Translations under genes and position numbers: made by a program
NCBI GenBank assembly: GCA_910574255.1
Contig: CAJTAK010000016.1
Span: 1-64,000, forward strand
Direction: 5' to 3'
Origin: Clostridia bacterium
GTDB lineage: Bacteria > Bacillota > Clostridia > Lachnospirales > Lachnospiraceae
DNA: 64,000 nucleotides
In this document: one piece after another, positions 3,092 to 28,772 of the stretch
How positions within the stretch are numbered: position 1 is the stretch's first letter
Layout of the letters: every line of letters starts with the position of its first letter
The notes under the pieces: generated by a model
What the model was told of the DNA's origin: nothing
Seen by the model: the letters and a program-made list of their open reading frames with translations, nothing else
Databases searched by the model: none

Positions 3092-3092
3092 A

Positions 3093-9532: not shown

Positions 9533-10486
9533 ATGGCGAATATAAGAGAATATAACATGAATGGAACATTGATTTTAGGAATTGATCATGGATATGGAAA
9601 TATCAAAACAGCACACAGGGTATTTCCCACCGCACTGATCAAGAGTGAGAAAGCGCCAACTTTCAGCAAGGATTATCTGGAGTATGACGGATATTTCTAC
9701 ATTATCGGGGAAGGTCATAAGAGCTTTATCGCTGAAAAGCAGTCAGATGATGATAATTATATCCTGACGCTTGCAGCAATAGCAAAAGAATTGAATGCAA
9801 GGGAATTAACCTCTGCCAGAGTGCATCTTGCCGCAGGACTTCCGTTGAAATGGGTGCAGGCGCAGAGAGAATCCTTCCGCCAGTATCTTATGCAGAATAA
9901 GATTGTGAAGTTTCGTTATAAAGGCAGACAGTATGAGATTGAGATTGCCGGATGTACGGTCATGCCGCAATGCTATTCTGCGGTGGCTGAAAACCTGAAA
10001 GATTTTAAAGGGATGAATTTACTTGCCGATATTGGCAACGGAACAATGAATATCATGTATTTAAACAATGGCAGGGCGATGGAGAGTAAATCATGGACAG
10101 AGAAGCTCGGTGTTTTCCAGTGTATGCAGCGTATCCGCAATAAGGTGTTGGACGAAACGGGAACAAACCTGATGAACGAGGTCATTGAAAATTATCTGAG
10201 GACGGGGGAAACGGATATTGCAGAGCCTTATGCCTCACTTATGAAAGAAGCAGCAGTTTCCTATGTGCAGGAGATTTTTCAGAAGCTGAAGGATTATGAG
10301 TATAATGAAAGCCTTATGCATCTTCACTTTATGGGAGGCGGTGCAAGAATCGTGGAAGCTGTCGGGGAATATAACCGGGAGAGGACGCATTTCAATCACG
10401 ATATCTGTGCGACTGCAAAGGGATATGAATATTACTGTTACATGATTTTGCGCCACAGTCAAATACCCAAAAGGCGGGGTATTTGA
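9533..10486 (+). CDS. ParM/StbA-family actin-like partition ATPase
   Basis: A 317-residue actin-fold protein. The phosphate-1 motif lies at residues 13-22 (GIDHGYGNIK) and the phosphate-2 motif near 164 (ADIGNGTMNI), with an adenosine-type GGGARI near 264. Family members form filaments that segregate plasmids with a DNA-binding ParR and a centromere. The downstream 10580 gene is the likely ParR. Partition genes are unusual for an integrated element and suggest a plasmid-like circular stage. A good ribosome binding site (AGAGAGGG) precedes the ATG. Confidence 0.8.
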   Translation: MANIREYNMNGTLILGIDHGYGNIKTAHRVFPTALIKSEKAPTFSKDYLEYDGYFYIIGEGHKSFIAEKQSDDDNYILTLAAIAKELNARELTSARVHLAAGLPLKWVQAQRESFRQYLMQNKIVKFRYKGRQYEIEIAGCTVMPQCYSAVAENLKDFKGMNLLADIGNGTMNIMYLNNGRAMESKSWTEKLGVFQCMQRIRNKVLDETGTNLMNEVIENYLRTGETDIAEPYASLMKEAAVSYVQEIFQKLKDYEYNESLMHLHFMGGGARIVEAVGEYNRERTHFNHDICATAKGYEYYCYMILRHSQIPKRRGI

Positions 10487-11966: not shown

Positions 11967-12000
11967 TCAGGAATAAAGAATAAGAGGGAGGATGTGGTCT

Positions 12001-13368
12001 ATGGCAGAGGTTTATGGGAATGTCAATGTGAATTACAGTTACTGCAAATCAGTCGCACAGTTAAAAAGTGCGGCAGATTATATTCTTGGAACGAAAAAAG
12101 AACAGATAAAAGAAGGAATACAGAAGACAAGACCGGATTTGTACGGAGCGTTTGGGTGTAACAGGGATAATTTTGCTAACAGTCTGCTGATAACAAGGAA
12201 GATGCACGATAAAAAATATTCGCGTTACAAACAGAAAGATATTCTGGCACATAAGATGTCGATTTCTTTTCATCCGGATGATAACGATAAGCTGACCTAT
12301 GAGGAAGCAGATAAGATAGCAAGGGAATTTGCGCATCAATTCTTTTGGAGCAAGGGATATGAAGCAATGTGGGCGGTGCATACGGACACAGAGCACATCC
12401 ATGTTCATTTTCTTGTGAGCAACTGTAATCTGAAGGACGGTAAATCTTTTCGCAGGGGAATGCCGAAATTGAAGGAAATGTCACAGTTTTTCGGGGAACA
12501 GTGCAGGGAGCGGGGGCTGACGCATTCAGTCAGGGATACATTTTATAATGAGGAGCGGACGCAGGAAAGGAAAAGTTTTGCGGAATGTCAGATGCAGAAG
12601 CATGATAAGCTGTCTTTTAAGGAAGAGATCAAGACTTATGTAAGACTGGCAATGAACAGCACTGGAACAAGAACACTTGAGGATGTGGTGGAGATGTTAA
12701 AGAAAATATATCTCATGGATATACGATTAAAAGGGAATACCATCAGTTATGCGCTTCCGTACCATGCGGGTAAAACAGGAAAAGCGCAGGCGGTCAGGGG
12801 AAGCAAACTTGGGAACCGTTTTACAGTGGCGGGAATCAGACAGTATATGCAGGAAAAAGAGCAGAAGCAGGTGGAATACAGGCGTACCATGCAGGATATT
12901 GAGGAAGCAAAACAGTATCTTGATGATTATGAGGAATGGCGGGAGGAGACGAAAAAAGTTGGGGATTCATTTTACGAAGCATTTGACCACTTTCAGGCAG
13001 ATCATGATGTATCTGAAAATGATGAAGAAATCTTTTACGGAAGTGTTTTTCAGGAGTTCAATGAACAATGGCAGGGGAACAGTGAAGCTGTTTCAGAGAA
13101 AAAATCAGAAGTAACCAAAGAGGAGAAAGTAGATTTTTCAAAACTTTCATTGGAAGAGCGTGCAAAGTTGCTTCCGCCGCCGACAAGTGATCAAATGGCA
13201 GAATTAAAAGAATATCAAAAACGGATGGGGTATGATGAAAGTAAAATGAAAAGTATGAAATATAAGATGACAGTCTATAATGAATTTTTGAGTGAGTATG
13301 ATTATCGGAAAAAGCATTTTGGAGTGGAGAAGGGTATTCAGAAAAAACAGAGAAATAGGGGGCGATGA
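12001..13368 (+). CDS. MobA/VirD2-family relaxase
   Basis: A 455-residue relaxase. The N-terminal about 200 residues hold the nuclease with the three-histidine metal motif in VHTDTEHIHVHF (about residues 120-132), and a candidate nicking Tyr in the first 30 residues. The C-terminal half is a charged coiled-coil region used for DNA or coupling-protein contact. ATG 12001 is chosen over 11992 because GGGAGG at 11986-11991 is correctly spaced only for it. No type IV secretion genes are present, so transfer would depend on a helper element. Confidence 0.92.
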   Translation: MAEVYGNVNVNYSYCKSVAQLKSAADYILGTKKEQIKEGIQKTRPDLYGAFGCNRDNFANSLLITRKMHDKKYSRYKQKDILAHKMSISFHPDDNDKLTYEEADKIAREFAHQFFWSKGYEAMWAVHTDTEHIHVHFLVSNCNLKDGKSFRRGMPKLKEMSQFFGEQCRERGLTHSVRDTFYNEERTQERKSFAECQMQKHDKLSFKEEIKTYVRLAMNSTGTRTLEDVVEMLKKIYLMDIRLKGNTISYALPYHAGKTGKAQAVRGSKLGNRFTVAGIRQYMQEKEQKQVEYRRTMQDIEEAKQYLDDYEEWREETKKVGDSFYEAFDHFQADHDVSENDEEIFYGSVFQEFNEQWQGNSEAVSEKKSEVTKEEKVDFSKLSLEERAKLLPPPTSDQMAELKEYQKRMGYDESKMKSMKYKMTVYNEFLSEYDYRKKHFGVEKGIQKKQRNRGR

Positions 13369-13520: not shown

Positions 13521-14234
13521 ATGAATAAGAAATATCAAATTTTTATTAGTTCTACTTATACAGATTTAGTAGAAGAAAGAAAGTATGTACAGGATGTTAT
13601 TTTGTCAATGAATCATTTTCCTGTAGGAATGGAATTATTTAGTGCAGCCAGTGAAGAACAATGGAATATAATAAAAAGAACTATAGATACATCTGACTTC
13701 TATGTATTGATAATAGGATATAGATATGGAAGTGAAATGCCAGATGGAATTGGTTATACGGAACGTGAATATATGTATGCAAAAGAAAAAGGAGTTCCAG
13801 TGATAGTGTTTATAAAACAAGAAGGACTTCCAGTTAAAGAAACAGATAGAGAGGCAAGTACATCCAAAAAGAAGAAATTGAAAGACTTTATTAATAGGGC
13901 TAAAATGGGAAGGGAAGTATCTTGGTGGTCAACAAAAGAGGAATTGGGACAGAAAGTTACAGTGTCTTTGTATAAAGAGTTTGAAAGAGTAAAGCGACCA
14001 GGTTGGGTAAGAGCAACGGAAGTTCTTGAGAAATCAAAAATGGAAGAATTGCAAAGAACAATTATGCAGTTGCGAAGTGAAAATGAAGAATTAAAAAGAG
14101 AATTATCTAAAAAGAAAGTTGGAGTCAGAGAATCATTGTTCAAAAGTACCGATTTTTTGAAAATGAAGAATAGTGGAAAAAATCCGTGTGATTCTCTTTC
14201 TGATATGCATTTTATTGATTACTTTGATGATTGA
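13521..14234 (+). CDS. DUF4062-domain protein, likely defence component
   Basis: A 237-residue protein. The N-terminal about 95 residues match DUF4062: YQIFISSTYTDLVEER at the start, then GMELFSAASEEQ and IIGYRYGS. This fold is related to TIR-like and nucleotide-processing domains and is common in prokaryotic immune proteins. The rest is a linker and a coiled coil (about 165-205). GGAG at 13510-13514 supports ATG 13521 over the 13497 ATG. It is low in GC compared with the relaxase and heads a three-gene cluster with an unknown protein and an HNH protein. Confidence 0.75.
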   Translation: MNKKYQIFISSTYTDLVEERKYVQDVILSMNHFPVGMELFSAASEEQWNIIKRTIDTSDFYVLIIGYRYGSEMPDGIGYTEREYMYAKEKGVPVIVFIKQEGLPVKETDREASTSKKKKLKDFINRAKMGREVSWWSTKEELGQKVTVSLYKEFERVKRPGWVRATEVLEKSKMEELQRTIMQLRSENEELKRELSKKKVGVRESLFKSTDFLKMKNSGKNPCDSLSDMHFIDYFDD

Positions 14235-14255
14235 ATAAAGGGGAGATAAAGTTGA

Positions 14256-14813
14256 ATGCAGGGAATTAAGAAACAAGTGTGGGAGATGTTTGTTTCAGTT
14301 GCGGAGCAAATGATGAAAGATGATTCTGAGATTGTATTGAATTATGCAGCAGTACAGCAATTTAGTGATGGTTTTGATAAACTATATATATATATCAAAG
14401 AAGTATTTATGCAAGATAGCGTAGTATATTTAGATAGGCATAAAGTGGCGGCAATAATTATAATTTCTTTTGTTAGAGCAAATGCATTAGGTTATGGAAA
14501 AAGTTTGGACAGTAGTATGTTTTGGGGGAATTATAAGTTGGCTATATCTGTTGGACTTTCTTATATGCTCGATATGTTCAATCATGAGTTGAGAGAAGGT
14601 GGTTGTCAAATAACAATAACAAAATATATTATGCCTAAAGTTCTTATGGACGATATACCCTACATAGATGTTTTGGCTAGAAATATTTATATATCCGAGA
14701 CTCAAAGAAAATCTGATTCTTATGTGATTGACCTAGCTGAGAAGTTGTTTTTAATAGAATTTATTACAATAGAAAAATATGACATTTCAACATTTGCTTT
14801 GAAACATTTCTAG
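14256..14813 (+). CDS. Unknown protein in the DUF4062-HNH cluster
   Basis: A 185-residue, mostly helical protein with no recognised domain. Residues 50-60 and 70-80 are hydrophobic but too short for membrane spans. An AAGGGGAG ribosome binding site precedes the ATG, and it starts 21 bases after the DUF4062 gene and ends 13 bases before the HNH gene, so the three are almost certainly co-transcribed. AT-rich base use matches its neighbours in the cluster and differs from the mobilisation genes. A structural or adaptor subunit is possible but unsupported. Confidence 0.6.
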   Translation: MQGIKKQVWEMFVSVAEQMMKDDSEIVLNYAAVQQFSDGFDKLYIYIKEVFMQDSVVYLDRHKVAAIIIISFVRANALGYGKSLDSSMFWGNYKLAISVGLSYMLDMFNHELREGGCQITITKYIMPKVLMDDIPYIDVLARNIYISETQRKSDSYVIDLAEKLFLIEFITIEKYDISTFALKHF

Positions 14814-14826
14814 AAGGAATAGATAA

Positions 14827-15657
14827 TTGGGAGATTTTATATATATGAATAACAGAGATGATTTTCCACAAAGGGTAAAAGATATATTATGTGAACGGGT
14901 AGGCGGAAAGTGTTCGAATCCCGGTTGTAGGCATGAAACCAAAGGCCCCCACAGTGATTCCAAAAAGCGAGTATCAATAGGACAGGCTGCACATATAACA
15001 GCGGCTTCTAAAGGGGGACCAAGATATAATCCCAATATGACTTCTGAACAAAGAAAGGATATAGAGAATGGAATTTGGTTATGTGATTCATGTGCAAAGA
15101 TGATAGACAGTGATGAAAGTCAATACCCAGTAGAGTTATTAAAAATGTGGAAAAGTATGGCTGAGTATGAACAATATCGCGCTATTAATCAGAAAGCTAA
15201 TTCGCTAGAAACAAATTGTGGATTTGAAAACAGAAAAAATGTTGCATGTAGAAAAACAAAAGAGGCATTAGATAATCTACATAATACCTTGCAATACGGA
15301 TATGAATATTGGAAATTAAATTTTGAGAATCGATTTAAAAGTTATGATTTAGAAAATGAGTTAGACAATCATTGGGAGCTCTATCGAACTAATTTGGAAC
15401 AAATATATACTTATGAGGAAAAACAAGCAGTTTTATATGCTACTATAACCGAATATGCATTAGATTTGGGTGTTGAATTGTGCGAAGAAATAAATGGATA
15501 TTGCAATTTGTTGAAATTTGTTTATCAGAGTGACAACTGTGGATTATATAACAATTATTGGAGATGTTTTTTTGAAACACTTTCAAAAAACATCAATTCA
15601 CTAATTAATCATAAAAGGACTATTGATACTTTGTTACATCAGAGATATTCAGCATAA
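14827..15657 (+). CDS. HNH-type nuclease-like protein
   Basis: A protein of about 276 residues whose first 110 residues form an HNH-like zinc-bound domain: CSNPGC, then AAHITAASKGG, then NGIWLCDSCAKMID, giving paired cysteines, the catalytic-type His after Ala-Ala and the Asn-Gly-x-Trp-Leu-Cys block. Such domains nick DNA and often serve as defence effectors. The C-terminal 150 residues are helical and unassigned. The start could be TTG 14827 (AGAAGGAA upstream) or ATG 14845. It is last in the DUF4062 cluster. Confidence 0.75.
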   Translation: MGDFIYMNNRDDFPQRVKDILCERVGGKCSNPGCRHETKGPHSDSKKRVSIGQAAHITAASKGGPRYNPNMTSEQRKDIENGIWLCDSCAKMIDSDESQYPVELLKMWKSMAEYEQYRAINQKANSLETNCGFENRKNVACRKTKEALDNLHNTLQYGYEYWKLNFENRFKSYDLENELDNHWELYRTNLEQIYTYEEKQAVLYATITEYALDLGVELCEEINGYCNLLKFVYQSDNCGLYNNYWRCFFETLSKNINSLINHKRTIDTLLHQRYSA

Positions 15658-15948: not shown

Positions 15949-17591
15949 GAGGGTGTAAAAAATTCTGTGTCTATGGGAAATTAAGTTCCTCTGATAAGAG
16001 TTCGATATGTAAAATTGCTTGTCGATTTTATGAATTTCTTCTTGTCGATTGTTCTTTCTATTTATAGTTTAACCACTATTGGACTTTTTATACATCTTAT
16101 TTCATTTTTTTGTACAAAAAATAAGGCATTGTACGATTACCTTCTTCGTGGGCTCTGCCCACACCCGACCTCCGGAATAAGACTGGGATTTTCTGGCAAT
16201 ACTTTAAATGCCGATGGAATAAGGTATAAGGTTAGGACAGCTGGCACTTCAGATTCAGATGCAGCTGCCCTGCCTTTTCCTTTTTATAAATACTGCGTCA
16301 GCCGTTCTCCATACAAGACAATTAGCTGATTCAAAACCTGGTCCCAGCCCCGGTATCTCTGGGTCCATTTTTTTATGATATTCTCACTGGCCAGATAGAG
16401 CATCTTCTCTAATGACTGGTCGCTGGGAAATACGCTTTTTGTCTTTGTTACTTTCCGATACTGCCGGTTTAATGCTTCTATGATATTCGTCGTATACATA
16501 ATGCGGCGGATGTCATCGGAAAACTGGAAGAAAGAACTTACGTCCTCCCAGTTGTTTTCCCAATTACTAATTGCATAAGGGTATTTCTTTCCCCATTTCT
16601 CTTTGACTGCTTCCAGTTTTGATCATGCGGCTGTTTCATTCGGGGCATTATATACCGCTTTAAAGTCACTGGAAAATTTCTTCAAATCACTGTAGTTGAC
16701 ATATTTGAATGAGTTACGCAGCATATGGATCACACACCTTTGGATTTGTGCATGAGGATAGACGGAGCTGATTGCGTCCTTAAAGCCTGTAAGTCCGTCC
16801 ACACAGAAGAACAGCACGTCCTTTACCCCTCGATTTTTCAGGTCATTGAGCATTCCCAGCCAGAACTTGCTGGTTTCGTTAGTTCCCACGGTAATACTGA
16901 GGATGTCTTTATACCCCTCCGTGGTAACCCCCAGCACCACGTAGGCTGCCCGGCTAAGGATGCGTCCCTCTTCCCGTACTTTGTAATGGATGCAGTCCAT
17001 AAAGATGAAGGGATAGATGGGGGAAAGAGGACAGGACTGCCACTCTTTGACCTGAGGGATGATTTTGTCGGTGATCTTGCTGACCATTTCAGCAGATAAC
17101 TCAATGCCGTAAAGATCCAGGAGCTGCTCATGGATATCCCTTGTGCTCATCCCTCTCGCATATAAGGAAATAACCTTTTCTTCAATACCGGAGATGTCAC
17201 GCTGGTATTTGGGAATGAGTTTGGGTTCGAACTCCCCATTGCGATCCCTGGGGACATCCACCTGGAATTCCCCATACTGGCTTTTCAAGGTCTTGGGCGA
17301 ATGGCCATTGCGTTTGTTACTTATAGGAAGGTCCCCTTTTTGATTCTTTTCGTATCCGAGGGAGGCATCCAGTTCGGCTTCCATAAGCTCCTGGAGAATG
17401 TCTTTAAAGCTTTCTTTGAGAAGGGCATACACATCAGCCACACTGGATAAGTTGTTTTGTGAAATGATTTGTCGAATTTGCTCCTTAGCTACCGCCATAA
17501 AAATACTCCTTTTCGATAAGAATTGTCATATCTGAATTCTTACCAAAAAGGAGACATTTTTTTCCAAAGACACAAACTATTTTACACTACC
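15949..17591 (-). mobile_element. IS256-family insertion sequence with target duplication
   Basis: About 1.64 kb bounded by imperfect terminal inverted repeats of about 28 bases. The ends share GTGTAAAA and TGTGTCT-x-TGG (15953-15976 left; complement at 17565-17587 right). The 8-base sequence AGTGTATG occurs directly outside both ends (15941-15948 and 17592-17599), matching the 8-base target duplication of IS256-family elements. It carries one transposase gene on the minus strand, interrupted by a stop. About 330 bases between the left end and the gene have no recognised content. Confidence 0.75.
16284..17498 (-). pseudogene. IS256-family transposase with an in-frame stop
   Basis: A 404-codon transposase frame broken by one TGA at 16625-16623. 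The upstream part is 291 residues and the downstream part 112 residues in the same frame, so one base change would restore it. Two catalytic Asp lie in FIFMDCIHYKV and FFCVDGLTGF before the stop; the catalytic Glu (NIIEALNRQ) lies after it, so the truncated product lacks its active site. The total length matches normal IS256 transposases. A sequencing error cannot be excluded. Confidence 0.88.
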
Positions 17592-17914
17592 AGTGTATGG
17601 GTAAAATGTTAAAAATATAATGGAAAAATGATAAGGATTTTTGCAGGCTCTTTTTTCAAGCAATTCATGATTTTCTTTATTTCTAAAATGTAATATTCTT
17701 ACAAAACACCTCAATGCACATAGAATCAGCTTTTTCTATTAGAAAATAAATATGATTGTCATAAATCGAGCATATTCTATAAACTGTTAATTTTTTTTGC
17801 ATTGTTAAGAATGTTAGCAATTTTTGAAAACGCATTGACAAAAGCAGGGTAAGTGTTAAAATTTTAATCATAAAATTATGAGTTAGAGTATATGGGTAGA
17901 AAAGGAGACCAATT
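17592..17914. other. Leader region of the XRE-PIN-ankyrin operon
   Basis: A 323-base gap. The first 190 bases are AT-rich with no recognised signal; the remainder carries the operators and promoter described separately and an AAAGGAG ribosome binding site for the 17915 gene. Confidence 0.5.
17783..17862 (+). promoter_or_regulatory. Promoter A with palindromic operator
   Basis: TTGACA (17835-17840), a 16-base spacer and TAAAAT (17857-17862). The palindrome ATTGTTAA, five bases, TTAGCAAT (17801-17821) lies 13 bases upstream of the -35; a weaker copy (CTGTTAA, then TTTGCATT) lies just before it. The same arrangement recurs at 21897-21975, with 27 of 35 bases upstream of the -35 identical and no gaps. 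The XRE protein encoded immediately downstream is the obvious candidate binder. Confidence 0.75.
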
Positions 17915-19177
17915 ATGGCATATTCAAAAAGCAACCCTTTTAACCAAGCAATTGGGGATAAAATAAGAACCTACAGAGAGAATGCAGGGGAAACACAAAA
18001 AGAATTTGCTGAAAAGATAGGGGTCAAAAGAGCAACATTGAGTCTGATAGAGTGCGGAGAGCAACCTCCTAGTCTGGAGGTGTTGGCAAAAGTTATTCAA
18101 ATCACAAAAATGGATATGGCTGAAATACTCAATCTACAACCCAAGAATCACATGATATTGGATACGAATATTATTATTAATTGTCCAGAACTTATGCGTT
18201 CACTGACCATATATTGTGATATGGTATACATTCCGAGAACTGTTGAGCGTGAATTAGAGCATCAAAAAAACTCAACAAGAGAAAATATAAGAAAAGATGC
18301 TAATTTAGCCTTGAATAAAATCATAGAAATGCGTAAAAGCCATCCAAAACAGTTTGTCATCGAGGAAGAAACAGGTGAAGGCAGCAATAATGATGACAGA
18401 ATTTTTTCTGTTGCATTAAAAATAGCGAGTGACAATCCAAATGATGATGTATATCTGCTGACAAATGATAAAGATTTCCAGTTGAAGGAAGCTGGAAAGA
18501 TAACAAATTTGAAAGTAATTACATCAAGGGATTTTGAAAGAATTTTCAGAAGGGACGAAAATTTTAATATTCCATTATCTCAAAAATTCTTTTCGGCAGT
18601 TTTGAAGAAAGATCTGGAAATGGTCAAACAGTTATCGGAAAAAAACATTGATGTAAATTATGTTGACACAAGATCAGGGTATACGCCATTGATTCAGGCA
18701 GTCAGGAATCGTGATTGTAAAATGGTGGGTTTTCTGTTGACACTGCCTCAGATAAAGATAAATGCTGTGGATCATAAAAAACACAGGCTGCCGGCTATTT
18801 CACATGCTGTCCAGATTTCGCATTTAGGTCTGGTGAAGCAGATGATTATGAATGGAGCAAATGTTAATGAGCCATCCCAAAGCGATAAAAATCCTTATAA
18901 CACACCTCTCATGATTGCTTCTTATGATGGAAAATTAGACTTTGTAAAGTTATTGGTTGAACATGGGGCTTGCATTAACCAGCAAGATAAGGGAAATGGA
19001 TTTACTGCATTGATCAAGGCAGCATTCCAAAACCATGCAGATATTGTTAAATTCCTTTTGGATAATAATGCAGATGCTACAATATGCTCGTTTGAAAAGA
19101 AAAAAGCAATTGATTATGCACGAGAAAAGAATGATGAGAACAGGTATAGAGCTGTGATTGATTTGCTTGAGGGGTGA
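17915..19177 (+). CDS. XRE regulator-PIN nuclease-ankyrin fusion protein
   Basis: A 420-residue three-part protein. Residues 12-72 are a Cro/CI-type helix-turn-helix (TQKEFAEKIGVKRATLSLIE). Residues 78-212 are a PIN-type RNase domain with the acidic set Asp83 (LDTN), Glu111/113, Asp160/161 and Asp185/187 (TNDKD), all present. Residues 225-420 are about five ankyrin repeats (GYTPLIQAV, NTPLMIASYDGKLDFVKLLVEHGA, FTALIKAAFQNHADIVKFLLDNNA). A DNA-binding toxin-like RNase with a protein-interaction tail is inferred. It is first in a three-gene operon, four bases from the radical SAM gene, and probably autoregulates through the upstream palindrome. I know of no named family with this architecture. 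Confidence 0.85.
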   Translation: MAYSKSNPFNQAIGDKIRTYRENAGETQKEFAEKIGVKRATLSLIECGEQPPSLEVLAKVIQITKMDMAEILNLQPKNHMILDTNIIINCPELMRSLTIYCDMVYIPRTVERELEHQKNSTRENIRKDANLALNKIIEMRKSHPKQFVIEEETGEGSNNDDRIFSVALKIASDNPNDDVYLLTNDKDFQLKEAGKITNLKVITSRDFERIFRRDENFNIPLSQKFFSAVLKKDLEMVKQLSEKNIDVNYVDTRSGYTPLIQAVRNRDCKMVGFLLTLPQIKINAVDHKKHRLPAISHAVQISHLGLVKQMIMNGANVNEPSQSDKNPYNTPLMIASYDGKLDFVKLLVEHGACINQQDKGNGFTALIKAAFQNHADIVKFLLDNNADATICSFEKKKAIDYAREKNDENRYRAVIDLLEG

Positions 19178-19181
19178 GGTG

Positions 19182-20072
19182 ATGATAGATAGAGCATGTA
19201 TTTCTTTAAATAATAATTGCAATATGCGTTGCAGATATTGTCACTTTCAAGACAAACAGAAGGATTTTGATTCTTTCAGTTTCCAACAGCTAAAGCTGAT
19301 ATTGGATAATATACATGCGTATTGTTTTAAAAGAGCGATTAAGAAATTCAAACTTGGGCTGGTAGGGTCAGGTGAGCCGATGCTTAAAGCCGATGTCATG
19401 TTGGAAGCACTTGGGTATGTATCGGCATTGGATTATTCGGAATTGTCAATATATACAATATCGAATGGTACACTATTTACTGTGGATTTATTGAGAAAGT
19501 TTTTAAGATATAGGGACAAAATAAAAATATGTGTGTCGTTAGACGGATATGAAGAGATTCATAATATTGGAAGACAGGCATTTGACAGGGTAATAGGCGG
19601 TATTGAAACGTATAAAGCTGTTTTCGGAGAATATCCAGCAATAAATGCGACGGCGACTATGGTTTCATATAAAAACAAGGAAAGGCTGGTTAACTTTTTT
19701 AAAGAAAATGGACTATATGATGTTACATTTTCCATATTAGTCGGCTGTTCTGAAAAGGATCTGTTTATCAGTTACGAGGATTTTCTTGCCTTTATGGAAT
19801 ATGTGAAGGAAACAGGGTTAAAATCCAGGCAATTCAGGGATGAGAAATGTTATGACTGCACAATGTATGGAAAACTGTGTGGGGTAGGCAGGAGTAATAT
19901 TTTTATTACACCGGAAGGAATTTACCCATGTGGTAGATTTTATAAAATGTCGGATTACTATCTGGGTGCATATGATGCGACACTTGACGAAATTGAGGAG
20001 CATATGCATCGTTTTACACCCGTGCAGGATGGAAAATGCTATTATATTGAAAATGTAGAGGTAATGAGATGA
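19182..20072 (+). CDS. Radical SAM enzyme with SPASM-like C-terminus
   Basis: A 296-residue radical S-adenosylmethionine enzyme. The 4Fe-4S motif C-x3-C-x2-C is at Cys13, Cys17 and Cys20; GSGEPM and VSLDGYEEIHN fit the SAM-binding barrel. The C-terminus has further cysteines (CYDC, KLCGVGR, YPCGRF) that suggest an auxiliary cluster of SPASM/Twitch type, often linked to peptide or small-molecule modification. ATG 19182 is chosen because of GGGGTGAGG at 19171-19179. It lies four bases after the XRE-PIN-ankyrin gene and overlaps the next gene by four bases. Its substrate is unknown; context suggests a nucleotide-like compound. Confidence 0.85.
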   Translation: MIDRACISLNNNCNMRCRYCHFQDKQKDFDSFSFQQLKLILDNIHAYCFKRAIKKFKLGLVGSGEPMLKADVMLEALGYVSALDYSELSIYTISNGTLFTVDLLRKFLRYRDKIKICVSLDGYEEIHNIGRQAFDRVIGGIETYKAVFGEYPAINATATMVSYKNKERLVNFFKENGLYDVTFSILVGCSEKDLFISYEDFLAFMEYVKETGLKSRQFRDEKCYDCTMYGKLCGVGRSNIFITPEGIYPCGRFYKMSDYYLGAYDATLDEIEEHMHRFTPVQDGKCYYIENVEVMR

Positions 20073-21832
20073 AGATTGCTATATATGGTGTCTCGAGAAG
20101 TGGAAAGGACTATCTGATAGAAGAACTGACTGAATATCTGGTACAGCGGAATGTGCCATTATATCATGTGAAGGGTTCGGAAATGCTTAATAAAATTTCC
20201 ATGTCCAAATATCAGAAGCAATTTAAGATCTTGTCTGAAGCTGAAAAAGATATTTGCAGGAAAGAATTTATTTCCGGACTATCCCAACTGGAATCCCAGT
20301 ATAAGAATATTGTTGTTGATGGACACTATTCTTTCTTTGATAGGAATATGAATTTATATGATGTTATTACAGAAGACGATTTAGATTGCTATGATCATTT
20401 TTTTTACCTTGATACAGATGCGGATAATATAATCGAAAGAATGCGGTTATCGACTGACGAGAAAAGGAATGATGTATACACCAGGGAGGATATATTACGG
20501 TGGAAGGCATATGAATTGGATGGATTGTCGTATGCACTCATTGGAAAGGGAAAGGAATTACATATCATCAATTATCGGGATGAGAGAGCATTAGAATATA
20601 TTTCAGAGGTGATAGAAGGAAAATATTCATCTCCAGATATTGCGAAACGGCTGGTTGCCTCCATTGAACTGCTGAATGAATATAATACGGTCATTCTAGT
20701 AGACTGCGACAAAACGCTTTCACTGGAAGACACGACAGACCTTGTTTTAAAAAGCAAAGGGATTGATGGTGGGACATTGAAAAATATTTATCAGGGAGAC
20801 AGATACTCCAACTATCAAGCAATGCTTGCAAAAGAATACCTGCAGCAGATGGAAGTTTCACAGATGGATTCAATTGTGTATATTAATGAGAATATAACGA
20901 TAAACAAGAAACTTATTCAAGAACTTAAATCGAAAAAAGCATCTCTTATCATAGGAATAACTGCTGGGGATAACCATGTGTGGGAAAGTATATTGAAAAA
21001 CAGCGGCTTAGAAATCATGGTGTTGAATGCTGAAATGGTAATGTCCAGATTTATTAAATATTACGTCATGAAAGAACTTCAGTTGCTCGGAAAATATGTT
21101 ATTGCAATAGGGGATTCAATGCTTGATAGTTTGATGCTTGAATACTCCAACAAATCATATATTATCTCAAACAAAGGGTATAGGGATAACATATATGATT
21201 TGCTATCTAAACATGAAAATATCCACCAGCTTTTTTATAACCAATATATATACGAAAGTATTATGATTGAGGACAGCATTAATAGCATTAAAACTTTGGA
21301 TACTGATAAGGAATTAGTAAAAAGCAGTATTGAGATTTGCAAAAGTGGTTCTGGCATTGAAGGAAAGAAACTGCGTGAGGCGCATTATCTGCTGGGCGGT
21401 GATGTAGCTGAAATGATAAAAGCAGATTTTTGTAATGCCCGATATGTGGTGGTTATAATGATGCGATCAGGATTGGCGTTTGGACAAGGCATCGCAGACT
21501 GTTTAGATTGCCCAGAGTTATTCTATGATGAATCATCAGCGGAAACATTTATAAGATCGTTTCTGGAAGATGGAAAATATAAAGGATATAAAATCATTGT
21601 ATGTGACGGGGTGATAAACTCTGGAAAAACCATAAAAAGAATTGTGGAGCAAATGGCAGGGTATGATATTATAATTGCCGCGAATGTAATTTCAAGCAAA
21701 TTTAAAACAAGCAGTCTGTATCCTATATATGCGGCCAGAATATCAAGAAATTCATTTGTTGGATCGAAACAAAGAGTTGTCTCGAATGGAAAAGGACCGG
21801 ATACTTCCGATAGGCTTTTCAGAACAATATGA
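20069..21832 (+). CDS. Single-chain P-loop kinase-HAD phosphatase-phosphoribosyltransferase
   Basis: A 587-residue fusion. Residues 1-185 are a P-loop kinase fold with GVSRSGKDY as Walker A and VVDGHYSF as a Walker B-like strand. Residues about 205-400 are a HAD phosphatase with DCDKT (motif I) and GDSMLDS (motif IV), SerB-like in spacing. Residues about 430-587 are a phosphoribosyltransferase: MMRSGL, the PRPP loop VCDGVINSGKT, and GPDTSDRLFRT at the end, which closely resembles the uracil-binding tail of uracil PRTases. Phosphorylation, dephosphorylation and base-ribosylation in one chain point to nucleotide synthesis or salvage. It starts at the ATGA overlap with the radical SAM gene and ends at a strong terminator. 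Confidence 0.82.
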   Translation: MKIAIYGVSRSGKDYLIEELTEYLVQRNVPLYHVKGSEMLNKISMSKYQKQFKILSEAEKDICRKEFISGLSQLESQYKNIVVDGHYSFFDRNMNLYDVITEDDLDCYDHFFYLDTDADNIIERMRLSTDEKRNDVYTREDILRWKAYELDGLSYALIGKGKELHIINYRDERALEYISEVIEGKYSSPDIAKRLVASIELLNEYNTVILVDCDKTLSLEDTTDLVLKSKGIDGGTLKNIYQGDRYSNYQAMLAKEYLQQMEVSQMDSIVYINENITINKKLIQELKSKKASLIIGITAGDNHVWESILKNSGLEIMVLNAEMVMSRFIKYYVMKELQLLGKYVIAIGDSMLDSLMLEYSNKSYIISNKGYRDNIYDLLSKHENIHQLFYNQYIYESIMIEDSINSIKTLDTDKELVKSSIEICKSGSGIEGKKLREAHYLLGGDVAEMIKADFCNARYVVVIMMRSGLAFGQGIADCLDCPELFYDESSAETFIRSFLEDGKYKGYKIIVCDGVINSGKTIKRIVEQMAGYDIIIAANVISSKFKTSSLYPIYAARISRNSFVGSKQRVVSNGKGPDTSDRLFRTI

Positions 21833-21850
21833 CAGTAATATTCCGTGAAT

Positions 21851-21877
21851 AACCTGTGGTATATCCGCAGGTTTTTC
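21851..21877 (+). terminator. Intrinsic terminator of the XRE-PIN/rSAM/kinase operon
   Basis: AACCTGTGG / CCGCAGGTT stem (21851-21859 with 21865-21873), five-base loop and T-run. It separates this operon from the next promoter. Confidence 0.85.
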
Positions 21878-21896: not shown

Positions 21897-21975
21897 ATGT
21901 TAAGAATTTTAGCATTGCTAATAATGTTAACAATTATTGCAAATATATTGACATAGATATAGATTGTGTTAAAAT
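21897..21975 (+). promoter_or_regulatory. Promoter B with the same palindromic operator, in two copies
   Basis: TTGACA (21948-21953), a 16-base spacer, TAAAAT (21970-21975). A perfect operator half-site pair ATTGCTAA, TAATG, TTAACAAT is at 21914-21934 and a second, weaker copy (ATGTTAA, GAATT, TTAGCAT) at about 21898-21915, roughly 18 bases upstream, on the same helix face within error. The layout matches 17783-17862. Confidence 0.75.
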
Positions 21976-22010: not shown

Positions 22011-22676
22011 ATGTGCAGATATGCAGTAGTTGATCTTGAAATGTGTAGAGTTCCCGACAGTGTAAGAACAAAAAAATATTGTTGGGCAAATGAAACAATC
22101 CAGATAGGAGCAGTGCTCTTGGATGAGGTCCTAGAAGTCCAGGATAGATTTGTCACCTATGTATTTCCTCAATTTGGATACATAGACACTTATATCAACA
22201 ATCTTACTGGTATCAGCCGAAATGATGTAAGTAAAGCGCCTACGATGAAAGAGGCGTTGAATGCTTTTGTAAGCTGGCTTCCAGACGATGTGAGGGTGGT
22301 TTCATGGAGTGATAATGATAAACTTCAAATTCTCCATGAAACCGAGGCAAAGAATATTTGCATTGATAAGTTGAAGGATATCCTTAACGGTTGGATTGAC
22401 TGCCAAAAGATATTTGGGGAAAAAATGCACTCTCTCAAATGCTACAAATTATCTGAGGCGCTAATTGCGGCAGATATTTTATATGAGGAAGGCGCACATG
22501 ATGGATTAGTAGATGCATATAACACAGCTCTTTTGTTTGCGAAGATGGAACGGGAAGAGGAACTGATCTTAAATCCATATTACCAGAGTGCAGTTTCTGA
22601 AAAGGCAAGTGATGGAGGTTTTACGATTGGCAGTTTATTTGTAGGTTTAGAGTTACAAAATCTGGTAGTGGCATAG
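22011..22676 (+). CDS. DEDDh 3'-5' exonuclease (RNase T/DnaQ fold)
   Basis: A 221-residue exonuclease of the DnaQ/ERI-1-like group. The DEDDh residues are visible: Asp and Glu in VVDLEMC near the N-terminus, Asp in SWSDNDK, and His-Asp in GAHDGLVDAYNTA. IQIGAVLLDE and NLTGIS are typical ERI/exonuclease III-fold blocks. Substrates are RNA or DNA 3' ends. ATG 22011 is chosen because AAAGGAG at 21996-22002 precedes it. It is the first gene after the second copy of the shared operator, so it is likely co-regulated with the XRE-PIN operon. Confidence 0.85.
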   Translation: MCRYAVVDLEMCRVPDSVRTKKYCWANETIQIGAVLLDEVLEVQDRFVTYVFPQFGYIDTYINNLTGISRNDVSKAPTMKEALNAFVSWLPDDVRVVSWSDNDKLQILHETEAKNICIDKLKDILNGWIDCQKIFGEKMHSLKCYKLSEALIAADILYEEGAHDGLVDAYNTALLFAKMEREEELILNPYYQSAVSEKASDGGFTIGSLFVGLELQNLVVA

Positions 22677-22931: not shown

Positions 22932-23855
22932 ATGGGTAAAAAAGCATTATTAGCTTGTATTATATTAATAGCAGTGAGCTTAGGTCTGACTGGATGCAAG
23001 AGTTCAGATTATAATGCGGCATTAAAGCTGGAAGAGGATAAAGATTATTCTTCCGCAGCGATGATTTATGAGGAACTTGGAGAATATAAGGATTCAAGGG
23101 ATCATTTGGAGAATTGTAATGCTATGATAGAGGCAATAGAAAAATACAATGGGGCACAGATTGAATTAGAAGAGAAGAATAATGAATTAGAAACTGCTAT
23201 TTCTGCCGCTGAGACTCTTGTATCGGAAAAGAAACCAGCATTAGATGATACATTGGCCCCCGCTTTAGAAACCGCTATTTCAGAAGCAAAGGCCGCTAAA
23301 AAGACTGTCCCTGCAATGCCTGAGACAGAAATTGAAATTAATGCATTGATTGACGAGCTTAATGCAGTAGAGTATAAAGATGTCTTGTCAAACCTTTCTG
23401 ATAAGCAGATGTCTTATGAAAAAAGCATAAAACAGTATGCATTAGTGGATGCTCCGAACGAATCATATATCATTGAATGTTTAAAGAAAGTTCCAAATGT
23501 TGTTGATATATCAGCGGTTACAGAGGACAATGATCCGAATGGACATTTGAACAAGGCAGGCGGCTATACTGCTCAAGTTTATTTTTCAAGCGATCTAGTG
23601 GATCAAGGAAAGGTACTTGGGGATACAGTTATTGAAAAAGGAACCGATTGTGGCGGGAGCATTGAGGTATATTCTACAGTTGAAGATGCAAATTCAAGAA
23701 ACGATTATTTGGCATCATACGATGGAGGAATTTTTGCTTCTGGATCACATATTGTCATTGGGACAGTATTAGTTCGTACCTCTGATAAATTGACTGCATC
23801 ACAGCAAAAAACAATGGAAGATAACATTATTACAGTTTTAACTATGATTGAGTAA
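22932..23855 (+). CDS. Putative lipoprotein
   Basis: A 307-residue secreted lipoprotein: a hydrophobic signal ends in the lipobox LTGC (Cys22). Residues 30-60 resemble a TPR-like helix pair (YNAALKLEEDKDYSSAAMIYEELGEYKDS), residues 70-175 are a helical coiled region, and residues 190-307 form a compact alpha/beta domain without a named match. A good AAGGAGG site precedes the ATG. It probably sits on the outer face of the membrane. It belongs to the unit after promoter B by spacing, though a gap of 84 bases leaves room for a separate promoter. Confidence 0.65.
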   Translation: MGKKALLACIILIAVSLGLTGCKSSDYNAALKLEEDKDYSSAAMIYEELGEYKDSRDHLENCNAMIEAIEKYNGAQIELEEKNNELETAISAAETLVSEKKPALDDTLAPALETAISEAKAAKKTVPAMPETEIEINALIDELNAVEYKDVLSNLSDKQMSYEKSIKQYALVDAPNESYIIECLKKVPNVVDISAVTEDNDPNGHLNKAGGYTAQVYFSSDLVDQGKVLGDTVIEKGTDCGGSIEVYSTVEDANSRNDYLASYDGGIFASGSHIVIGTVLVRTSDKLTASQQKTMEDNIITVLTMIE

Positions 23856-24381: not shown

Positions 24382-26700
24382 TTACTTGGAACATTCAAGA
24401 TATTTATTTTTATACGCCAAAGCCTGTTCCGGTTTCTGCCATCGGGAATACAGGTTATTCAGGTACAAATAAACCGTTTTGGCATAATCGTTATCGCTTC
24501 CCATGACTTCCGAAATAATATTCTCCGCAGATAAAAGATGAAGTTCGGCTTCTTTAGCGTTGCCCTCGGAAAGCGCAATCGCGCCATACATCATCTGGCA
24601 GACTCCGTTATCTAAAGTCTGTGTTCCCTCATTTTCCAAAACAAGATTTTCATAGGTGGAAAGAACCTGTTTTGCCATATCTGTATTTTTGGAGAGGATC
24701 AGCATATTGGTAAGGTTCAGCAACTGTTGCAGCATATCATGTGATTCTGCCAGCCCGAGATATGCATATTCCTGCCGGATGGTTAAAGCAGTATGGAGCA
24801 TTTCAGCAGCCTCTTTTGCTTTTTTCATCAGCAGGTATGTATTGGAAAGATTGTTGTACAGGTTTGAAAGCAGATTTGCTGTCCGCTGGTCAGCATCTTC
24901 CGTATGGTACGGTTCTAAGATACTGACAGCTTTTAACCGTTTCTTCAAGGCGTTTTTATAATCATTTTTGATAAGAAACAGTTCCGCTTTATAGTCAAGA
25001 AGCAACGCCCTGTCGCAGTAGGAATGCGTATCCTGTTTCATTACATGCTCTATCCGTTCTACAAGTTTTGGCAGATAGTCCGTCACAAGATATTTTTCAA
25101 GATACGGGAACATATCCTGAAGGAACAGCAGATAATCCTCTGGTATGTCCGCTAAAATGTTTTCTGTAATGCTGATAAGTGAATCAATCACATTCTGCGG
25201 TCTTTTAACTTCCAGTCCATGCACAAGGCAGATACAATGCAGGCTGTCAAGCAGCGTATGGCAGTTTGATACGGACGGCAAAGTTTCCAGTGCAACAATT
25301 TCTCTTATCAGTGGGTGCAGGCTGATTTTCCGGTTTTCTCTGTCATCATGGATAAAACCGTATTTGGCAAGATAGTTCACATCATTTAATGAGGTCAGTT
25401 TCAGCCAGTTCTTAAAGGCATTTTTTAATACGCCGGAGGCAGAAAGCAGGGAAAGATTACGGAGAACATCAAGGCAGGGATCAGACAGTTTCCCAAGCTG
25501 TAACAGTTTCTTTAAATGCTCTGCCATCAGTCCGTCGGTGTAATCTCCATCCTTATATAATTCAACAGCTTCACCGGAAGCAATACTCAGTCCGCAGGTC
25601 TGTAATTCATATAGCAGTTCTTCCGCTTCCATACCGCTTGCGGATAAGGACAACGCAGACAATACAACAGTCAGCGTATGGCTGTGTACGGTTTGTATGA
25701 TCTGCTTTGTTGCCAGTGTATCTTCTTTTGCGGAAGGGCACAGACGGTAAAACAGTTCCGACAGTTCGGTATCTGTATCCAGCTCTTTTAGTTCCATAAT
25801 GGGGTACTGCGTAGGACGGCATCTGGTTGTTATCAATAGCTGGAAATCATTCTGTGCAAATTCCTTGAAAAAGCTTTCATCCTTTGGGAGTACATTAAAA
25901 TTGTCAAGAATAATAAGGCTGTCATGGCGCAGCTTTTTTAATGTCTTATAGTGTCTGTCAAAAAGCGTTTCTTCAGTCATTTCACTGGTATCACCGTCAA
26001 ATTCTATGCCTGCAATGCTTTTCTTTAAATCTCCTGCATAATAGAGGTAAATGATATTTGTATATTTCTTACGGTTTTTGTCTGCATAATATTTCGCAAA
26101 TTCACTCTTCCCGATCCCTGCCACGCCACTGATAAATAGTGTGGGGTGTTCCTGTAACAGTTTCCCGCATTCTTTCAGTTCATTTTTACGTCCTACAAAT
26201 TCTTCCGTGATGGAGGGCAGGCGGCTGTTTTGTATAGTATCGAATAAATCAGGGGAAAATAAGCCGCTGTGTTCGTGGTCTGACAGAATGGCATAGCGGA
26301 TCGTGGCAGTAAAAAAAGCTGCATTATCGGTAAGTGCAAGCATTTCATCTGCGGTTTTGTTGCCGATGATATTGCGGCTGTCATTGATCAGTTCTTCTAT
26401 TTGGGAACGTGCCTGTGATTCATTTATCAGGTTCGGAATGATCTTGCACAGGAAATCTTCTTCCATGACCTCAAAATTATTATCCTCATAAATGCGCAGG
26501 ATCTCCATAGGTATTGGTCTTGCTCCGGTACACCAGCGGCTGTACATAGTGTTGTCTTCTGCATATATTTCACCGCTTGAAAGTTCATCGTTTAAGTATG
26601 CGGAAAATAAGCTGCGGACAAGCTGGTGCTGTTGATAGGTTTTCTTTTTATTCTCAAGAAGTATGCTTACTGTATTGGCAAAGGTAAGTCGATTTCTCAA
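24382..26700 (-). CDS. STAND NTPase with TPR C-terminus
   Basis: A 772-residue signal-transduction ATPase. Residues 1-155 are a helical N-terminal domain of unknown role. Residues about 165-400 are an NB-ARC-like NTPase with Walker A GVAGIGKSE, a Walker B (SLIILDNFNV) and an Arg in QLLITTRCRP; a winged-helix region follows, then TPR-like repeats at about 560-770. STAND proteins of this form act as sensors that oligomerise on a trigger, often in defence. Translation starts at TTG (26700-26698), supported by GGGGAG six bases before it. It is monocistronic within the mobile element and ends at a stem-loop. Confidence 0.85.
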   Translation of the reverse strand: MRNRLTFANTVSILLENKKKTYQQHQLVRSLFSAYLNDELSSGEIYAEDNTMYSRWCTGARPIPMEILRIYEDNNFEVMEEDFLCKIIPNLINESQARSQIEELINDSRNIIGNKTADEMLALTDNAAFFTATIRYAILSDHEHSGLFSPDLFDTIQNSRLPSITEEFVGRKNELKECGKLLQEHPTLFISGVAGIGKSEFAKYYADKNRKKYTNIIYLYYAGDLKKSIAGIEFDGDTSEMTEETLFDRHYKTLKKLRHDSLIILDNFNVLPKDESFFKEFAQNDFQLLITTRCRPTQYPIMELKELDTDTELSELFYRLCPSAKEDTLATKQIIQTVHSHTLTVVLSALSLSASGMEAEELLYELQTCGLSIASGEAVELYKDGDYTDGLMAEHLKKLLQLGKLSDPCLDVLRNLSLLSASGVLKNAFKNWLKLTSLNDVNYLAKYGFIHDDRENRKISLHPLIREIVALETLPSVSNCHTLLDSLHCICLVHGLEVKRPQNVIDSLISITENILADIPEDYLLFLQDMFPYLEKYLVTDYLPKLVERIEHVMKQDTHSYCDRALLLDYKAELFLIKNDYKNALKKRLKAVSILEPYHTEDADQRTANLLSNLYNNLSNTYLLMKKAKEAAEMLHTALTIRQEYAYLGLAESHDMLQQLLNLTNMLILSKNTDMAKQVLSTYENLVLENEGTQTLDNGVCQMMYGAIALSEGNAKEAELHLLSAENIISEVMGSDNDYAKTVYLYLNNLYSRWQKPEQALAYKNKYLECSK

Positions 26701-27566: not shown

Positions 27567-28772
27567 ATGGGAAGATCATTGGCAGGAAAAGAATTAGGGC
27601 AGGGCATAACGTAGCGTAAGGATGGACGTTATCAGGCGAGGTTTACGAACCGCTTCGGGAAGCGGCAGACTATTTATGCAAAGACGCTGAATGAAATCCG
27701 CCAGAGGCTCCGCAATGAGCAGTATGAGGATGAAAAGAATCTGAATGTTGTTTCTTCGGATATGACGTTGGATGAATGGTTTGATGTCTGGATGGATACC
27801 TGTAAGAAGAATTGCAGGAATACCACCAGAGCCAACTATACACACTCGTATAACCGTATCAGGGAAAGTCTTGGATGGCGGAAGCTGAATAACATCAATC
27901 TGATTACCATGCAGCAGGCTTTTAACGAACTGAAAACGGATATGTCCAGAAAAGACACACGGCGTATCCTCATTGATATGTACAACAAGGCGATAGATGC
28001 GGATCTCGTACTGAAGAACATACCAATGCAGGTGAATACAGTTGTGAATAAGGACAGTAATTCGGAAGAGCCGAGAGTGCTGACGCTTGAAGAAACGGAT
28101 ATATTCTTGGAAGCAGCACAGCATTACAGATATTTCAACACGTTCAGCCTTGCTCTTGAAACTGGTATGCGCATCGGAGAGCTTTTAGGCTTGAAGTGGT
28201 CAGACATTGATTTTGAAAACCAGACAATCTATGTTAATCGTACTTTGGTTTATGTGACCTGTAAGGACGAAACAAGTCCGAAGTACGGAAAGAAAATCAA
28301 TGAATTTCACGAGCCAAAGACAGAAAAGGGAAAGCGTAAAATCCCGATGACCTTAAAAGCATATCAGATTCTGAAAAGACAAAAACTCTGGAAAGCTGAA
28401 ATTGAAGCCAAAGGAAAGAAAGCACCAGAGGGATTTGAGGACTTGGTATTTGTTACTACAAGGAATGCTCCCGTCAGTCAGAATGACACGGATCTGGTCA
28501 TGAAGGTTATTTCAGACCGGATAGCCAAAGAACACGAAAAATTCAAACCATTAACACCGCATACGCTCAGACACACATTTGCGACCAGATGTATTGAGCG
28601 TGGCATGAACCCTAAAACAGTGCAGGTTATCTTAGGACATTCAAGTGTCAATATCACAATGAATCTGTACTGCCATGTGACGGAAGACACGCTCATATCT
28701 GAAATGAGTAAATTTGAAGCAGAAGAATTTGAAAAAGGTGTCAATCGTCGAATTGGTGTCAAAGTGGTGTAA
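27567..28772 (+). pseudogene. int: Tyrosine integrase with a stop at codon 16
   Basis: From the ATG at 27567 (AAGGAAG upstream) a 401-codon tyrosine recombinase frame is intact except for TAG at 27612-27614, codon 16, in the N-terminal arm-binding domain (just before RKDGRYQARFTNR); a CAG-to-TAG change would explain it. The catalytic domain is complete: Arg in TGMRIGELLGLKWSD, HTLRHTFATR, GHSS and the Tyr in MNLYCHV. Reinitiation downstream would give a protein lacking the arm-binding domain, probably unable to integrate or excise normally. It ends within the 28751 repeat. Confidence 0.88.
28751..28771 (+). repeat. Right-end copy of the TGGTGT repeat
   Basis: AATTGGTGTCAAA (28751-28763) followed by GTGGTGTA (28764-28771), inside the last codons of the integrase gene. 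It matches 8921-8942 in order and spacing within two bases, so the two could delimit a 19.8 kb element or serve as integrase arm sites. Confidence 0.5.

Follow-up and report, generated by a model that had tools for sequence, protein, structure and literature searches.

We analysed a window of 64,000 nucleotides from a Clostridia bacterium of the family Lachnospiraceae (contig CAJTAK010000016.1, positions 1 to 64,000) and describe here an operon of three genes on its forward strand. The first gene (17915..19177, 420 aa) encodes a protein that combines a DNA-binding XRE domain, a PIN domain and ankyrin repeats (XRE-PIN-ankyrin), the second (19182..20072, 296 aa) a radical S-adenosylmethionine (SAM) enzyme and the third (20069..21832, 587 aa) a fusion of a P-loop kinase, a HAD phosphatase and a phosphoribosyltransferase (PRTase). 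The first two genes are separated by four bases (19178-19181), and the last two overlap as ATGA (20069-20072). A promoter-like site, TTGACA-16-TAAAAT, precedes the genes (17835..17862, forward strand, 11/12 consensus matches); our scan yielded 32 promoter-like sites in the region compared to 22.8 in shuffles, so that this site is weak evidence when taken alone. A terminator-like stem-loop with a T run follows (21851..21873, forward strand). An initial reading of the DNA letters (the sequence-only reading) had proposed a candidate undescribed system of three linked genes at 17783..21877 on a mobile element. The four-base gap, the ATGA overlap, the promoter and the terminator that it described are found at these coordinates, and the domain identities that it assigned agree with the Pfam matches given below.

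The gene set recurs in 57 non-duplicate loci, the window included. Relatives of the fused protein were found in 3/391 other genomes of the order, and a kinase-HAD profile detected relatives in 5/396 other genomes of the family and in four IMG/VR contigs. All ten loci that we drew from these searches and inspected carry the XRE-PIN-ankyrin and radical SAM genes. A phylum-wide draw, in which only a few candidates were scored per genome, gave no relative in 397 other genomes. A radical SAM pattern scan of one genome per species (84,980 species) yielded 52 loci, 51 of which are members of the system. In total, 69 loci had a radical SAM match, and 12 of these were left out of the counts: nine duplicates (L030, L032, L035, L041, L063 and L078-L081) and three weak matches (L077, L082 and L083). 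L010 and L026, which represent a near-identical element, were both counted. The hosts are Clostridia and their relatives, including Ruminococcus albus, R. flavefaciens, Lachnospira multipara, Pseudobutyrivibrio, Lachnoanaerobaculum and Anaerobium; one locus of the radical SAM scan lies outside the Clostridia, in the gammaproteobacterium Anaerobiospirillum.

Most loci contain all parts of the set. An XRE-PIN-ankyrin protein of at least 300 aa is present in 55/57 loci; contig ends are the reason why L038 starts at the radical SAM gene and L052 keeps 199 aa of the first protein, and the copies in L033 and L069 are also cut at a contig end. The kinase-HAD part is found in 54/57 loci, with a 112-aa fragment in L045, and the PRTase in 51/57. 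Contig ends account for the gaps in L062, L072 and L050. In L059, the reading frame breaks off where the PRTase part begins, and 82 bases are left to the end of the contig. True losses are observed in L045, where the kinase-HAD part is cut at about 103 residues and no PRTase follows, and in L075, where the radical SAM gene is cut and both kinase-HAD and PRTase are missing. Because the set recurs across dozens of loci, chance adjacency of the genes is ruled out. The sequence-only reading had named homologues that never co-occur as evidence against its proposal; we looked for this pattern and found that the homologues co-occur nearly always. These neighbourhoods show that the four activities (XRE-PIN-ankyrin, radical SAM, kinase-HAD and PRTase) travel as one unit. 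Two further candidates were rejected as members: G186, with 24% identity over the PRTase part and, as judged by eye, a 191-aa PyrE-like PRTase at the locus, and G552, where a 727-aa frame matched in the HAD part only. The order of genes differs in L066 (3675-8840), where a gene for a NERD protein and the kinase-HAD-PRTase gene come before the XRE-PIN-ankyrin and radical SAM genes.

The conservation of the proteins indicates intact active sites, with catalytic positions that are almost invariant. In the first protein, Pfam detects HTH_3 (17-70, 3.4e-10), PIN_4 (80-191, 1.3e-16) and ankyrin repeats (1.8e-26), corresponding to a DNA-binding domain at about aa 13-75, a PIN domain at about 78-210 and an ankyrin block at about 222-415. 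The acidic residues of the PIN active site are kept, with D83 (a residue already singled out in the sequence-only reading, as were C13 of the radical SAM enzyme and the PRPP-type loop of the PRTase, all of which are present) in 54/59 homologues, E/D113 and D185 in 59/59, and position 160 acidic in 56/59 (D in 54 and E in two). In the ankyrin block, 19 positions are identical in 59/59 proteins, among them N318, N326, N329, P331-L332-M333, N355, D358, N361, G362 and K368, and the block carries a near-invariant NQQD-NG-TALxK stretch. Outside this block, only K118 and D185 are identical in all 59. Tandem pairs of PIN-ankyrin genes lie 5' of the radical SAM gene in L019 (4677-7180), L039 (412-2915), L034 (5397-8011) and L037 (5360-7994); in L019 and L039, the second gene of the pair has no XRE domain.

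The fused protein consists of a kinase at about aa 1-175 (AAA_17 6-135, 1.4e-9), a HAD phosphatase at about 195-375 (Hydrolase_3 180-368, 1.2e-4, just above its cut-off) and a PRTase weakly resembling uracil phosphoribosyltransferase (UPRTase) at about 413-587 (UPRTase 455-586, 2e-5; the scores for Pribosyltran and UPRTase are just under their cut-offs). Besides the window, 17 other loci have kinase-HAD fused to the PRTase. The G and K of the kinase P-loop are kept in 54/54 kinase-HAD homologues, and the HAD motifs DxD, Lys and GDxxxD (D212, D214, K330, G348, D349 and D353) in 53/54, the remaining one being a gap. In the phosphoribosyl pyrophosphate (PRPP) loop, VCDGVINSGKT in the window, the D is present in 51/51 and the G in 50/51 homologues. 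The C-terminal motif of UPRTases is GDAGDRxFGT; here, its place is taken by GPDTxxRLF (50-51/51, with P-D-T and R-L in 51/51), which suggests that the PRTase uses a base other than that of UPRTase.

The order of kinase and HAD phosphatase is also that of phage Pnkp. The fused protein might thus serve in repair, as a polynucleotide kinase-phosphatase, or in salvage, with PRTase and kinase rebuilding a nucleotide that is depleted by other defences (NARP-like), and the phage-borne copies would fit such a role. No polynucleotide-phosphatase model matched in our Pfam scans of the kinase-HAD proteins, however, and no ligase was recognised among the recurrent neighbours. Repair or salvage would also leave the linked PIN domain and the operator logic unexplained. 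We found PNKP-type repair unsupported and consider this explanation in general highly unlikely.

In the radical SAM enzyme, the Pfam domain Radical_SAM (8-171, 6.2e-13) includes the CxxxCxxC motif at 13/17/20. Four C-terminal cysteines (226, 233, 250 and 286) resemble those of SPASM/twitch auxiliary clusters, as the sequence-only reading had noticed, and are predicted to bind such a cluster. Each of these seven cysteines is kept in 55-56/57 homologues; overall, the window enzyme is 31-39% identical to the other compared relatives. The nearest solved relatives in the PDB are mostly peptide or protein maturases (best 4k37, 3.5e-14). Among the matches listed, the enzyme is under the cut-off of each of 25 NCBIfam models, the best being PapB with 70 bits compared to a cut-off of 340.

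To compare the evolution of the parts, we correlated their pairwise identities, with the PRTase part cut off the fused proteins (leaving it in gave nearly the same result). The enzymes co-vary, with rho of 0.78 for radical SAM and kinase-HAD, 0.83 for kinase-HAD and PRTase and 0.68 for radical SAM and PRTase; in each case 0/500 permutations were as high. For the XRE-PIN-ankyrin protein, rho is 0.11 with radical SAM (8/500), 0.03 with kinase-HAD (134/500) and 0.03 with PRTase (116/500), and values of 0.02-0.03 with kinase-HAD are obtained when its XRE, PIN and ankyrin parts are each compared alone. Because its identities do not track those of the enzymes, these correlations show that the XRE-PIN-ankyrin gene is exchanged between enzyme sets, whereas the three enzyme parts co-vary. 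A constant ankyrin surface on an exchanged protein would fit a constant partner or ligand that comes from the enzymes.

These results also bear on the substrate of the radical SAM enzyme. Since its closest solved relatives are mainly sulfatase maturases and maturases of ribosomally synthesised and post-translationally modified peptides (RiPPs), a protein substrate is possible. The substrate could be a small membrane protein or the ankyrin block itself, which the enzyme would mature and on which kinase-HAD-PRTase would place a nucleotide or phosphoribosyl group, or take one away. This is in line with the PapB match, with the core and C-terminal cysteine set shared with radical SAM/SPASM maturases and with the near-invariant stretch in the ankyrin block. 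The enzyme differs from the maturases in its scores under the listed NCBIfam cut-offs and in that no constant substrate peptide was found: among frames of at least 60 aa, no small-protein or precursor-peptide cluster occurs in more than 14/57 loci. Furthermore, it tracks kinase-HAD and PRTase and hardly the PIN-ankyrin protein that it would modify. Modification of a protein appears unlikely to us. A small family with the pattern MAW(D/N)..EKGN..HGG and a membrane-type segment lies directly 3' of the fused enzyme gene in L057, L060, L061, L064 and L065, as well as in L010, L011 and L026; a relative also lies 5' of XRE-PIN-ankyrin in L010, L011, L026 and L057.

The DNA around the operon contains a repeated regulatory site. 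A stretch at 17785..17840 (forward strand) comprises the -35 of the operon and an operator with TGTTAA-like half-sites (by eye), and a second copy of operator and -35 is found at 21898..21953 (forward strand), 5' of an exonuclease gene that has a promoter-like site at 21948-21975. The two copies align over 56 bp without gaps and with a score of 52, where the maximum was 34 for stretches taken from the window at random (597) or for their AT content (362 AT-rich ones). When the 5.04-Mb assembly was searched with a 31-nt degenerate core derived from the two sites, allowing three mismatches, no further site was detected; a reversed control gave no site either. The gene behind the second copy (22011..22676, forward strand) encodes a DEDDh 3'-5' exonuclease (Pfam RNase_T, 1.8e-9) that is probably co-regulated with the operon. 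Further downstream lies a gene for a putative lipoprotein (22932..23855, forward strand) that matched no Pfam family; it is 70% identical to a lipoprotein that follows the operon behind an operator array in L034 and is possibly part of the same regulated cassette. The three-gene operon of the sequence-only reading stands, but the feature it described stops too soon at 21877, as the exonuclease has a copy of the same operator and promoter and the lipoprotein is possibly linked. The regulation, the shared operator and the probably co-regulated exonuclease are absent from that account, as are the second unit with NERD or lipoprotein genes in some relatives and the exchange of the XRE-PIN-ankyrin gene against co-varying enzymes.

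In the relatives, the DNA 5' of the first gene contains GTTGC direct repeats whose spacing switches between 20 and 30 bp, giving a unit of 50 bp. The 54 upstream regions contain 43 pairs with a spacing of 20, and 25 loci have a spacing of 19-21. Of nine promoters viewed by eye, eight have an inverted GCAAC in the interval from -35 to -10; L067 has ACAAC. Among upstream regions of at least 200 bp, the array is present with all 25 first genes whose recognition helix is K-S-[ST]-[ILV]-S-R (L060 counted in this class) and with 0/27 others, two of which are second genes of tandem pairs. With the strict helix pattern, the counts are 24/24 versus 1/28, and the one, L060, has the same helix outside the pattern. 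The distances between XRE domains are unrelated to those between the enzymes. GTTGC arrays are also found 3' of the PRTase gene: before a NERD gene in L009, L020, L022, L025, L029, L051 and L056, in L037 before a gene of 151 aa that precedes NERD, before the lipoprotein gene in L034, and without an assignable gene in L058 and L070. When the first and second promoters of a locus were aligned, the alignment beat all random stretches in 7/18 loci (L022, L025, L029, L031, L034, L056 and the window). These comparisons show that the helix class of the XRE domain goes with the operator array and that the same operator precedes a second unit, with nuclease or membrane genes, in the window and in some relatives. 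As operator copies and helix-linked arrays front both units, the XRE-PIN-ankyrin protein very probably controls a small regulon, consisting of its own operon and a variable second unit (in the window and some of the relatives). For other helix classes, GTGCA with 33-bp spacing could be a second operator type, seen weakly in 4/13 and 2/2 upstream regions; GTGCA repeats lie 5' of the first genes of L031, L044, L021 and L050.

The second unit differs between loci. By eye, the recurrent neighbours in the 57 loci are NERD, small-protein and recombinase genes. NERD proteins are found in 17/57 loci (Pfam 2.8e-15 for the one scanned), a small-protein cluster that includes a membrane-type family of 100-130 aa in 14/57 and serine recombinases in 9. 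The exonuclease adjoins the operon in 3/57 loci only, the window and L010/L026, where a 58% identical homologue lies 5' of the same operon. As a constant core part it was rejected: homologues occur in 12/199 other genomes of the family (E <= 1e-30), and four of four examined are unlinked, with none of the core genes in their 8.5-11 kb surroundings. Its solved matches are ERI1-type (five sequences, best 9.3e-6).

The regulated PIN domain raises the possibility of a toxin with an enzymatic antidote, that is, an addiction module of the mobile element in which an XRE-autorepressed PIN toxin is kept inactive by a ligand or modification made by the enzymes. XRE and PIN share the first gene, the genes are tightly coupled and their location is mobile. 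XRE-regulated and VapC-type PIN toxin-antitoxin modules have PIN catalytic residues and an XRE domain as well; here, in contrast, both reside in one polypeptide, the PIN domain is of the Pfam family PIN_4, and enzymes stand in the place of a protein antitoxin, so that membership in the VapC type is unsupported. Moreover, four catalytic activities would be extraordinary for an antidote, and addiction does not need the separately promoted second unit of some loci. We therefore regard a toxin-antidote pair as improbable.

As the sequence-only reading had proposed, the operon is surrounded by genes of a mobile element. Because a relaxase (11992-13368) and an actin-like gene (9533-10486) on one side and a tyrosine integrase (27762-28772) on the other surround it, the most likely location of the operon is an integrative mobilisable element. 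Relatives occur on phages. In L019 and L022, two phage contigs, the operon is flanked by lysis genes and, at its other side, by serine integrases, and the L020 contig contains an integrase and a major head protein; on the L021 contig, a single frame was scanned and gave no match. The phage end near the integrase is a common cargo site. The fused protein had no relative in searches of phage or plasmid sequences or in a first viral scan, and the separate kinase-HAD had no match in phage sequences. Six partial plasmid matches of kinase-HAD were rejected; they are limited to the HAD part, with a query coverage of 18-21%. Four are annotated as P-type ATPases and two are unannotated.

Such positions could also reflect element housekeeping, where the operon regulates prophage or element genes and carries nucleotide-salvage cargo without a role in defence. 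The integrase-proximal position in phage contigs and the phased operator arrays, which are like those of regulatory switches, agree with this. However, the operon also occurs where, by eye, no evident phage genes lie in the vicinity, arrays of at least three repeats are seen 5' of its own operon and 3' of the PRTase gene, and the catalytic PIN residues are nearly invariant. Housekeeping is, in our view, distinctly unlikely.

Other genes in the window are described here for completeness. An IS256-type transposase gene, seemingly split into two frames, lies just 5' of the operon (16284-17498, reverse strand). On the same element, a DUF4062 protein, a 185-aa protein and an HNH-like protein (13521-15657) form a second candidate defence cluster; the N-terminal part of the HNH-like protein matches PADLOC PDC-M68A (6.8e-28) and SAVED-HNH effectors. 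Near the integrase, a 772-aa STAND-type NTPase with TPR repeats (24382-26700, reverse strand) has a weak match to LmuA (3.2e-4) and is a possible defence gene. At 1250-3479 (reverse strand), a BlaR1-type peptidase is fused to a penicillin-binding transpeptidase domain and adjoined by a 128-aa reading frame.

When comparing the gene set to known systems, we find no model of it in the Pfam, NCBIfam, PADLOC (PADLOC-DB 2.0.0, 2023) and PHROG libraries and no description in our searches of the open PubMed Central literature. Within these sources, it is a conserved system, mainly of Clostridia, that is undescribed, as the sequence-only reading had proposed. In PADLOC, the matches of the XRE-PIN-ankyrin protein are confined to the HTH or ankyrin parts, with one (capH) extending to residue 130, the fused window protein has two matches at 0.01-0.02 only, and the separate kinase-HAD, PRTase and NERD have no match at 1e-3. 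For the radical SAM enzyme, the top match in PADLOC is pVip (2.1e-14). Prokaryotic viperins, some of which lie beside nucleotide kinases, likewise combine a radical SAM enzyme with a neighbouring P-loop kinase; the window enzyme scores 50.2 bits compared to a viperin cut-off of 180, has four extra C-terminal cysteines and has HAD, PRTase and PIN partners.

A likeness to tellurite (Ter) systems had been suggested by the sequence-only reading. For the PRTase and HAD enzymes of Ter systems, a proposed role is the synthesis of nucleoside derivatives that warn of an incoming threat; as here, these enzymes lie beside putative sensors (TerB/TerD) or membrane components, also in phages (PMC7824862). 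Here, the PRTase matched only Pribosyltran and UPRTase, and a radical SAM enzyme, a P-loop kinase and the XRE-PIN-ankyrin protein are present in addition. No model of the Ter-type PRTases, whose Pfam names are PRTase_2 and PRTase_3, matched, and none of TerB, TerC, TerD or TelA was found by Pfam among 20 window proteins scanned. The likeness is thus a functional analogy at most. Membership in Ter, viperin or PADLOC systems was rejected.

Further published parallels concern single parts. The diDNases are DEDD nucleases of genomic islands (PMC11706625), and the exonuclease is likewise a DEDD-type enzyme on a mobile element; no diDNase or NrnC is among the solved matches of the exonuclease. According to DefensePredictor, the E. 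coli systems newly validated there include a PIN nuclease and a HAD phosphatase; the words "ankyrin" and "radical" are absent from its main text.

A further parallel is RNase L, where ankyrin repeats that read 2-5A are joined to an RNase. The ankyrin block of the window protein is likewise joined to a nuclease domain and matches RNase L with 1.2e-28, among the best 60 of 437 PDB sequences. In contrast to RNase L, the nuclease is a PIN domain, there is no oligoadenylate synthase, and the match is one of ankyrin repeats in general; the PDB entries above RNase L are mostly ankyrins and designed repeat proteins. The likeness, as judged from this comparison, is one of logic and not of kinship.

Taking these observations together, we tentatively favour, with somewhat less than even confidence, a mobile and self-regulated conflict system whose most likely target is phage infection or superinfection. 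We infer a nucleotide product, ligand sensing, RNase activation and a role in defence. The sequence-only reading had suggested a modified pyrimidine nucleotide that would control the PIN effector or be surveyed with it; its linked gene set is supported, and the pyrimidine nature of the ligand is a hypothesis, as is its control of the PIN domain, with a PRTase that resembles UPRTase weakly and a radical SAM enzyme whose nearest solved relatives are mostly maturases. The XRE domain would repress both units. The PRTase would couple a base to PRPP, the kinase and the HAD phosphatase would tune its phosphates and the radical SAM enzyme would modify the product, resulting in a nucleotide-like ligand. 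Upon infection, the level of this ligand may shift. The invariant ankyrin surface would sense the ligand or dock the enzymes, whereupon XRE would leave the operator and the PIN domain would be freed to cut RNA. The derepressed exonuclease, NERD protein or lipoprotein could then strengthen the block.

Several observations weigh against this reading. The nearest solved relatives of the radical SAM enzyme are sulfatase and RiPP maturases, and only MoaA and Cfr (0.0097) among them are known to act on nucleotides or RNA. Several of the 19 invariant ankyrin positions are generic ankyrin consensus positions. The helix class was defined after the arrays had been seen, and the loci are related by descent, with kinship not corrected. 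The promoter alignment was negative in 11/18 loci; in five of these, NERD lies inside or ahead of the operon. The genes of the second unit vary (NERD 17/57, exonuclease 3, lipoprotein 2), and the location on phages and elements would also fit a control of lysogeny or transfer.

A more far-reaching version, which we consider unlikely, is that the conflict system is a bacterial analogue of RNase L, with the same logic assembled from unrelated components. A pathway of radical SAM enzyme, PRTase, kinase and phosphatase would make a new modified-nucleotide second messenger, and the invariant ankyrin surface would read it, unleashing the PIN RNase and releasing XRE from phased arrays that govern swappable nucleases or membrane effectors in phages and integrative elements of Clostridia.

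In conclusion, phages and integrative elements, mainly of Clostridia, contain a conserved multi-enzyme system that is undescribed in the libraries and papers searched. The operator code offers an immediate experimental handle, and the exchange of the XRE-PIN-ankyrin protein among co-varying enzymes is a natural experiment that could separate sensor from pathway. We know of no earlier messenger made by a radical SAM enzyme, so that this one would be the first, if true. If the enzymes make a signal, bacterial conflict would gain a nucleotide messenger of a new class.

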